Assembly (NCBI RefSeq): GCF_900129375.1
Contig: NZ_FQVN01000001.1
Location: 372,001 to 436,000, forward strand
From: Streptoalloteichus hindustanus
GTDB lineage: Bacteria > Actinomycetota > Actinomycetes > Mycobacteriales > Pseudonocardiaceae
DNA length: 64,000 nucleotides
Direction: 5' to 3'
This document shows positions 26,068 to 48,134 of this stretch, in pieces. The stretch's first letter is position 1, and every line of letters starts with the position of its first letter. The notes beneath the pieces were generated by a model, which did no database searches, had not been told where the DNA came from, and was given only the letters and a program-made list of their open reading frames with translations. Made by a program: the position numbers and the translations under genes.

Positions 26068-26706
26068 ATGACAGTCGGACGGTTACTCCGCGCCCTGCTC
26101 GCGGGGTTGGCTTTCACCCTGGTCGTGACGCTGGGCTGGGCGGTCCCGGCCTCGGCCGCGCCGCCGAACATCCCCAGCGCGGCCACCGCGCGCAGCGAGC
26201 TGGCCGCGTTACGGGTGGCCGCGCCCGGCTCGATGTCCGGCTACTCGCGCAAGAAGTTCCCGCACTGGATCACCATCTCGGGCTCCTGCAACACCCGGGA
26301 GACGGTGCTCAAGCGCGACGGCGACGACGTGGACACCGACGAGGACTGCTACCCCACGTCGGGGACCTGGTACAGCCCCTACGACGGCGAGACCGTGGAC
26401 TCGCCCTCCGACATCGACATCGACCACGTCGTGCCGCTGGCCAACGCCTGGCGCTCGGGCGCGTCGTCGTGGACCACGGAGAAGCGCAGGCAGTTCGCCA
26501 ACGACCTCCGCTACCCGCAGCTCATCGCGGTGACCGCCAGCAGCAACCGGGCCAAGGGCGACCAGTCCCCTGACGACTGGAAGCCGCCGGTCAGGTCGTA
26601 CTGGTGCACCTACGCGAAGATGTGGGTTCACGTCAAGCACCACTACGCGCTGACCATCACGTCCAGCGAGAAGGGCGCGTTGTCGGACATGCTGGGTCGG
26701 TGCTGA
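26068..26706 (+). CDS. secreted HNH-family nuclease (DUF1524-like)
   Basis: A 212-residue exported nuclease. A signal peptide with a basic start (MTVGRLLRAL) and AxA cleavage site (ASAA) covers about 33 residues. The HNH-like centre is DIDIDHVVPLANAWRSGA with a following ANDLRYPQLIAVTASSNRAKG and DQSPDDWKPP, the pattern of DUF1524 actinobacterial extracellular nucleases. Paired cysteines (CNTRE, EDCY, WCTY, GRC) fit a secreted protein. GGAGGTCCG precedes the ATG. Probable role: extracellular DNA degradation and nutrient recovery. Confidence 0.9.
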   Translation: MTVGRLLRALLAGLAFTLVVTLGWAVPASAAPPNIPSAATARSELAALRVAAPGSMSGYSRKKFPHWITISGSCNTRETVLKRDGDDVDTDEDCYPTSGTWYSPYDGETVDSPSDIDIDHVVPLANAWRSGASSWTTEKRRQFANDLRYPQLIAVTASSNRAKGDQSPDDWKPPVRSYWCTYAKMWVHVKHHYALTITSSEKGALSDMLGRC

Positions 26707-27081: not shown

Positions 27082-27125
27082 GACAGCCCCCACCCGTCCC
27101 GGGGGGCGAGCCCCGCTCCAGCCTA
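27082..27125 (-). repeat. 44-bp dispersed element, copy A
   Basis: Read on the minus strand it begins TAGGCTGGAGCGGGGCTCGC and ends GGGTGGGGGCTGTC. It matches copy B at 48091-48134 in 41 of 44 positions, in the opposite orientation. The sequence forms a GCCCCC/GGGGGC hairpin just after a TAGGCT box. Confidence 0.9.
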
Positions 27126-27165
27126 TCGATCAGCGAAGAGCGGGCCAACACACCGACGAAAAAAC

Positions 27166-27226
27166 TGTGGACAACTCCGGAAATGGCATCGCCCAACCGG
27201 GTTAGAACGGCCCGTCCTGTGGACAA
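27166..27226 (-). promoter_or_regulatory. two DnaA-box-like sites (TTGTCCACA)
   Basis: TGTGGACAA occurs at 27166-27174 and 27218-27226; on the minus strand both read AGTTGTCCACA. TTGTCCACA is the DnaA-box consensus of high-GC actinomycetes. They lie upstream of copy A of the 44-bp element. Binding is not shown by sequence alone. Confidence 0.55.
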
Positions 27227-48022: not shown

Positions 48023-48050
48023 TTGTCCCCAGGTCCGCGAGTTGTCCACA
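48023..48050 (+). promoter_or_regulatory. DnaA-box-like sites
   Basis: AGTTGTCCCCA and AGTTGTCCACA lie 19 bp apart. The second is followed by GCGGGCCGTT, and copy A has ACGGGCCGTT at the same relative place after its outer box, so the similarity extends beyond the 44-bp core. Confidence 0.55.
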
Positions 48051-48090: not shown

Positions 48091-48134
48091 TAGGCTGGAG
48101 CAGGGCTCGCCCCCCAGGGCGGGTGGGGGCTGTC
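48091..48134 (+). repeat. 44-bp dispersed element, copy B
   Basis: Begins TAGGCTGGAGCAGGGCTCGC and ends GGGTGGGGGCTGTC; 41 of 44 positions match copy A (27082-27125), which lies on the other strand. The hairpin GCCCCCCAGGGCGGGTGGGG is conserved in both. Confidence 0.9.

Follow-up and report, generated by a model that had tools for sequence, protein, structure and literature searches.

The 64,000 nt window of the Streptoalloteichus hindustanus genome analysed here contains two inverted copies of a short module in which DnaA-box-like sequences stand at fixed distances from a −10-like hexamer and a dyad of C and G tracts. The module is repeated many times in this genome, occurs widely in the Pseudonocardiaceae, and in seven genomes is concentrated around dnaA. 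Judged by its sequence, the best explanation is an origin-proximal DnaA-binding module that would titrate or sense DnaA, a reading given a probability slightly above one half (about 0.55).

Two copies in the window and the layout of the module

The reverse complement of nt 27082–27125 (copy A) agrees with nt 48091–48134 (copy B) at 41 of 44 positions, as described in the initial annotation of the window, and the TTGTCCACA boxes and TAGGCT hexamers it placed at both copies are present. The repeat is real, but the conserved unit is longer than the 44 bp element proposed, at about 100–125 bp, and extends from the distal box to a CTG. The parts of the two copies are as follows.

27084..27110, minus strand: copy A, 27-base GC-dyad core (CTCGCCCCCCGGGACGGGTGGGGGCTG), among the 86 copies with no more than three mismatches
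27120..27125, minus strand: copy A, −10-like hexamer TAGGCT, at a fixed distance from box and core
27143..27148, minus strand: copy A, possible −35 sequence TTGGCC, 17 bp from TAGGCT; weakly supported
27166..27174, minus strand: copy A, proximal DnaA box TTGTCCACA, starting 49 bp upstream of TAGGCT
27218..27226, minus strand: copy A, distal DnaA box TTGTCCACA, starting 101 bp upstream of TAGGCT (usually 67–68 bp)
48023..48031, plus strand: copy B, distal box variant TTGTCCCCA
48042..48050, plus strand: copy B, proximal DnaA box TTGTCCACA, starting 49 bp upstream of TAGGCT
48091..48096, plus strand: copy B, −10-like hexamer TAGGCT
48106..48132, plus strand: copy B, 27-base GC-dyad core (CTCGCCCCCCAGGGCGGGTGGGGGCTG), a match to the core

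Copy A is flanked by the 3′ ends of a 258 bp ORF without a Pfam match and of a FUSC-type gene, and copy B by those of a VTT-domain gene and a phosphoribulokinase/uridine-kinase-type gene. They lie 252 kb (A) and 231 kb (B) from dnaA. Upstream of the 258 bp ORF, to the left of copy A, is a gene (nt 26068–26706) with a GmrSD_C domain, not DUF222.

With up to three mismatches allowed, the 27-base core is found 86 times in the 7.28 Mb genome, against none for a reversed-pattern control, and is repeated far beyond chance. A DNA search with copy A returned many more sites (the best 40 of 135 candidates were scored). Among 20 further sites inspected, 18 of them taken from the list of exact boxes in the genome and two from another comparison, five are modules with a variant core (L292, L294, L299, L309, L310) and 15 have boxes without the core. 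The genome-wide search suggested by the initial annotation therefore yields a family of at least 91 copies (86 core matches and five variant-core modules); they are neither a solitary pair nor all contained in one known repeat family. Three sites (L291, L293 and L302, on contigs C8, C11 and C8) carry paired boxes with no −10 hexamer or core, one of the six boxes being the TTGTCCCCA variant, and may be decayed copies or represent another type of element.

The module has a constant layout, in which the TTGTCCACA-type boxes, of which there are one or two, are followed by the hexamer TAGGCT and then by CGCCCCCC-N5-GGG(T/C)GGGGGCTG. All 86 copies have a proximal 9-mer within two mismatches of TTGTCCACA that starts 48–49 bp upstream of the −10-like hexamer (no mismatch in 63, one in 13, two in 10). 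A second box with no more than two mismatches is present in 61 copies, usually 18–20 bp farther out, and both boxes are within one mismatch in 52 copies but not in the remaining 34, so that most copies, though not all, have at least two DnaA-box sequences close together outside oriC. Seven of the ten two-mismatch proximal boxes are TCCTCCACA, off the DnaA consensus, and 25 copies have no second box at the usual place; both observations count against a DnaA-binding module. The 86 copies hold 125 exact TTGTCCACA and 13 TTATCCACA sequences, the former making up 125 of the 228 exact occurrences in the whole genome (114 per strand, against 32 for a reversed control). The sequence CGGGCCGTT, which had been pointed out near a box, is incidental, being found within 130 bp upstream in only three of 86 copies.

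A −35-type signal, consisting of two T positions at 1.2–1.3 bits with 17 bp spacing, is seen in S. hindustanus copies only. Beyond the CTG little is conserved, apart from a TCC partly kept in S. hindustanus. Two main alleles of the core are found in this genome, CCCCCCAGGGCGGG and CCCCCCGGGACGGG; among the listed copies, those with CCCCCCGGGACGGG have GCGGGG in front of it. Where the distal box is missing, several copies (e.g., L052, L063, L078, L079, L106) carry a palindrome of the type ACCCGA-nnn-TCGGGTGA at some distance upstream of the proximal box.

Distribution in the Pseudonocardiaceae and position relative to dnaA

A model of the module (R1) was built from 44 copies and used to search other genomes, with no more than 29 candidates scored in each. 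At E ≤ 0.001 it matches 93 of 120 Pseudonocardiaceae genomes and 40 of 46 genera, where matches near the limit may be due to chance; at E ≤ 1e-10 the figures are 56 of 120 genomes and 26 of 46 genera (counted by hand). A search of 148 genomes sampled from the class, S. hindustanus included, whose filters lose some weak matches, gave no convincing copy in the 147 others, only three of which had a match at all (E 3e-5 to 5e-5). When 84,980 species, each represented by one genome, were scanned for the core pattern, in a set that may omit records close to the S. hindustanus genome, 17 stretches were found, all from Pseudonocardiaceae (Goodfellowiella, Amycolatopsis, Kutzneria, Actinokineospora, Streptoalloteichus and Longimycelium), and in all 17, retrieved by the core only, at least one box could be recognised upstream by eye. 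In three Amycolatopsis stretches (L159, L168, L170) the second box points the opposite way to the first.

Spacing is maintained across genera. In 53 aligned copies from other genera, chosen for possessing a box and a TA...T, the box is 46–49 bp from the hexamer and the hexamer 16–17 bp from CGCCCCC; no −35 signal is present in these copies. Among 65 core matches outside the genus at the loci examined, which were not selected for TA...T, 61 have TA...T at the −10 place, and the four exceptions come from two genomes (G034, G091) of one genus. A box lies at −75 to −50 in all 65, many of the loci having been retrieved with a model that includes the box. A congener of S. hindustanus has 128 core matches at no more than three mismatches, and copy number in the family ranges from 1–2 to 128 per genome, which is odd for an essential brake. 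No description of the repeat was found among the titles and abstract openings listed in searches of open-licence papers.

The classic DnaA box is quoted in a passage of PMC4210621 as TT(G/A)TCCACA, and the module boxes fit this pattern by their letters. The same pattern occurs upstream of dnaA in all seven genomes examined (TTGTCCACA in five, TTATCCACA in two). An origin of the module from the rpmH–dnaA region was considered and rejected, as a DnaA box is kept there but by eye no −10 hexamer or core lies at the module distance. A separate box-like cluster (TTRTCCACA, then -TCCACAG and TTRTCCCCAG), without the module core, is found in all seven genomes examined shortly after a gene that we take to be recF (at 12367 in L275, 8232 in L277, 8220 in L278, 5759 in L279, 6272 in L280, 7853 in L281 and 7576 in L282). 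The dnaA–dnaN spacer of S. hindustanus has only three TT(A/G)TNCACA sites; sites with no more than one mismatch to TTGTCCACA number six there, compared with 0.09 in shuffled sequences. The presence of only three TT(A/G)TNCACA sites counts against the reading as a DnaA-binding module, as does the oriC of Kutzneria, reported in a passage of PMC4210621 to be without a classic DnaA box.

Clustering around dnaA was examined in six single-contig genomes and one two-contig genome, representing seven genera, using R1 at E ≤ 1e-4 (weak matches included) and rounded genome lengths. The 88 matches have a median distance from dnaA of 7% of the half-chromosome, 49 of them within 10%, and when pooled depart strongly from uniformity (one-sided KS, p = 1.8e-27), under a null that disregards the old core and housekeeping genes lying near oriC. 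Housekeeping genes near oriC are reported for Kutzneria in a passage of PMC4210621. Taken singly, the seven genomes give KS p values of 8e-10 to 0.04, with only two matches each in two of them. Orientation relative to replication is unbiased (48 of 88). As is characteristic of origin-proximal DnaA-box clusters, the modules lie near oriC. On the S. hindustanus contig that carries dnaA (C19), 27 copies show a weak gradient towards the gene (KS p = 0.04); copy density differs among 14 contigs (chi-square p = 3e-6), and three contigs, 1.96 Mb together, hold four copies.

Many genomes have a copy in the cyd operon. Besides S. hindustanus, 105 genomes of the family gave a CydA match; the survey covered 96 of these, omitting nine in which the match was weaker. 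Contig ends truncated several of the stretches, and in 16 of the 96 no more than 1.5 kb past cydA was covered. The module is found in the cydA–cydB gap in 19 of 96 genomes (18 of 30 in one search, with a weakest E of 8e-9, plus G110) and in cydDC in 10, giving, with S. hindustanus, 30 of 97 genomes; five more cydA–cydB gaps with weak matches (E 8e-5 to 2e-3) were left uncounted. By the strands listed, all 30 copies are antisense to the operon. Within cydDC, seven of the ten matches break the protein alignment near residues 290–309 or 824–845 and the other three lie near residue 300 by position; the two places are occupied in different genera and would correspond to the linkers before the two nucleotide-binding domains. 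The frame is open through the module at the four cydDC loci read, from two genera (L064, which is the S. hindustanus locus, L185, L187 and L190); the other cydDC loci with the module are L342, L345, L348, L350, L351, L352, L353, L358, L363 and L369. Six of the eight aligned cydA–cydB gaps (e.g., L192, L196, L200) share, next to the distal box, a conserved palindrome, GTTTCAGGTGAAAC, reminiscent of parS. A functional tie to the operon was considered, given the 30 genomes with a copy there, and set aside. In the seven genomes with dnaA placed, the operon is about 125–335 kb from that gene (126 kb in S. hindustanus), so that location may explain the cyd copies, and single matches can sit elsewhere, that of G093 adjoining another gene.

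Constraint, turnover and alternative readings

Seven ortholog places were found among 20 congener stretches compared with S. hindustanus. Mismatches in these pairs amount to 8/117 in the boxes, 0/42 in the −10 hexamer and 4/202 in the core; in the same pairs the spacer shows 120/439 and the flanks 355/1076 (27–33% divergence). Nine chosen near-duplicate pairs within S. hindustanus have 0/135 mismatches in the boxes, 0/54 in the −10 hexamer, 1/261 in the core and 137/878 in the spacer. Pair members had to match the core pattern and a box with up to two mismatches, which biases the core and, less so, the boxes. The seven places are uninformative on turnover because the S. hindustanus stretches were chosen for holding copies. 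Turnover is seen in one stretch, where S. hindustanus lacks three congener copies at two sites, an absence that counts against the DnaA-binding module. The congener also has close tandem copies.

This turnover bears on a selfish, non-autonomous interspersed repeat of the REP or MITE type, whose route of spreading is left unspecified and which would survive mainly in 3′–3′ gaps near oriC, its DnaA-box sequences serving its own propagation. The family is dispersed, in many copies, with near-duplicates (copy A and L094 are 90% identical over 214 bp, L309 and L014 95.6% over 294 bp), as expected of such elements, and the very uneven copy number, the three missing copies and the copies inside cydDC also favour this origin. 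Where a hairpin or terminal repeats would be looked for, there is a sequence dyad without excess stability or covariation, and the duplicates have ragged ends; inspected by eye, neither of the two empty sites shows a target duplication. Moreover, orthologous copies are constrained in boxes, −10 hexamer and core, and the same motifs are kept in aligned cydA–cydB gaps from eight genomes of five genera. Searches of 72,556 plasmid and 50,697 phage records gave no match to copy B, and spread by plasmid or phage was rejected on this result. A selfish repeat is, on balance, an unlikely explanation.

The initial annotation had offered a small RNA gene as one possibility. A DnaA-responsive promoter for a short RNA, starting near GGGG and containing the C and G tracts, would fit the TA...T seen at the −10 place in other genera and, in S. 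hindustanus, the two partly conserved −35-type T positions; set against it are the missing −35 signal of those genera and the low conservation past CTG. The transcript itself finds no support in folding, covariation or Rfam. The GCCCCC/GGGGGC hairpin proposed for the core is conserved as sequence, but its dyad folds no better than shuffled sequences (z 0.03 to 0.96) and, across 44 sequences, no pair has changed on both sides, six of the seven pairs never varying and hence being uninformative either way. At the gathering score there is no Rfam match in the window; around copy A there are two sub-threshold matches (p27_CRE, E 0.1; mir-484, E 0.35). A short-RNA promoter thus appears quite improbable. 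A G-quadruplex, assessed by eye only, was also rejected, one G-tract not being kept (loop variants GGTGA and GGAGA).

By the gene calling of this study, 85 of 86 copies are intergenic, and the single exception lies inside the fused cydDC transporter gene, the frame passing through it without a stop. The arrangement of the 85 (47 convergent, 3 divergent and the rest tandem, 19 in one direction and 16 in the other) and the position of convergent stop codons, from 8 bp off the core, are what a bidirectional terminator at convergent gene ends would show. In the listed copies the dyad is not followed by a T-tract, the tandem placements are even, therefore favouring neither side, and the fixed boxes and clustering at oriC would be left unexplained, making a terminator very unlikely. 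The remaining suggestion, that a gene of the HNH/DUF222 (REP13E12-like) type has left behind a decayed 5′ leader, had as its sole argument a resemblance pointed out in the initial annotation. It is contradicted in this genome, where none of 23 scored candidates matches DUF222 at E ≤ 0.001, and the motifs are constrained all the same.

Two other suggestions made there, a DnaA-titrating site and a dispersed regulatory element, fare better. Box spacing, box constraint and clustering around dnaA make the former the best supported reading, in which binding and titration are predicted activities, and the latter is compatible with it because the −10-like hexamer is conserved.

A possible role in replication control and comparison with known systems

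Because they crowd around the start of replication in related species, the DnaA-box-like modules are probably part of replication control. Each copy, nearly always intergenic, would bind the initiator DnaA through one or two boxes, usually about two helical turns apart and held at a fixed distance from the −10-like hexamer and the C/G-tract dyad. Being concentrated near oriC, the copies would be duplicated soon after initiation and would then take up DnaA, making re-initiation harder. The conserved −10 and dyad part may make the site transcriptionally responsive to DnaA, or may recruit a partner; any role in transcription is put forward here as a prediction.

Titration alone leaves the −10-like hexamer and the dyad unexplained, which counts against the DnaA-binding module as described and is why a bolder version is kept open. 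In this tentative proposal, which we regard as possible and would not favour, a DnaA site has been turned into a standardised two-part repeat, with about 100 copies near oriC in some genera, forming a distributed replication-control array that would read the DnaA level, double after initiation and possibly couple DnaA occupancy to local transcription.

Several known systems resemble the modules in part. The datA, DARS1 and DARS2 loci of E. coli are non-coding, contain several DnaA boxes and control DnaA, with partner sites for IHF and Fis; they are single loci, unlike the dispersed modules described here. In Streptomyces, a DnaA-box cluster is reportedly involved in regulating replication (Smulczyk-Krawczyszyn 2006). 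Streptomyces clusters of this kind are individual loci and are not known to form a repeat family; R1 has no convincing copy in the 147 other genomes of the class. REP/BIME and RPE repeats also occur as many short intergenic copies, some of them in frame inside genes, whereas the present module has DnaA boxes at fixed spacing and clusters at oriC, and its hairpin is unsupported by folding or covariation. What is new relative to known DnaA-box clusters is a standardised, dispersed unit with about 90–130 copies in the genus. The part played by DnaA titration in setting the timing of initiation has long been debated.

The B. subtilis DnaA-box clusters reviewed in PMC5295017 are similar in that they are DnaA boxes outside oriC, and removal of all six oriC-proximal clusters gave early initiation. 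They number six, as against tens to more than 100 standardised modules in which the −10-like hexamer and C/G dyad are fixed features, and their binding and phenotype are known, whereas for the modules both would be predictions. A sink role is suggested for the six clusters in a passage of PMC5295017, an analogy weakened by a passage on B. subtilis. In E. coli, according to passages of PMC12371093, DnaA boxes accumulate around oriC and titration sites double early, which is argued to make them a sink; these are scattered motifs with a degenerate consensus, while here the boxes lie inside a conserved repeat unit. The same 2025 paper states in one passage that experimental evidence for a titration role was lacking before it.

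The modules would provide a natural family with from one to more than 100 copies of one standard DnaA-box unit concentrated near oriC, in which copy number and position could be compared with replication timing across related species, and the same family would be open to deletion tests of DnaA titration. It may also bear on the oriC of Kutzneria, which a passage of PMC4210621 reports to be without classic DnaA boxes.
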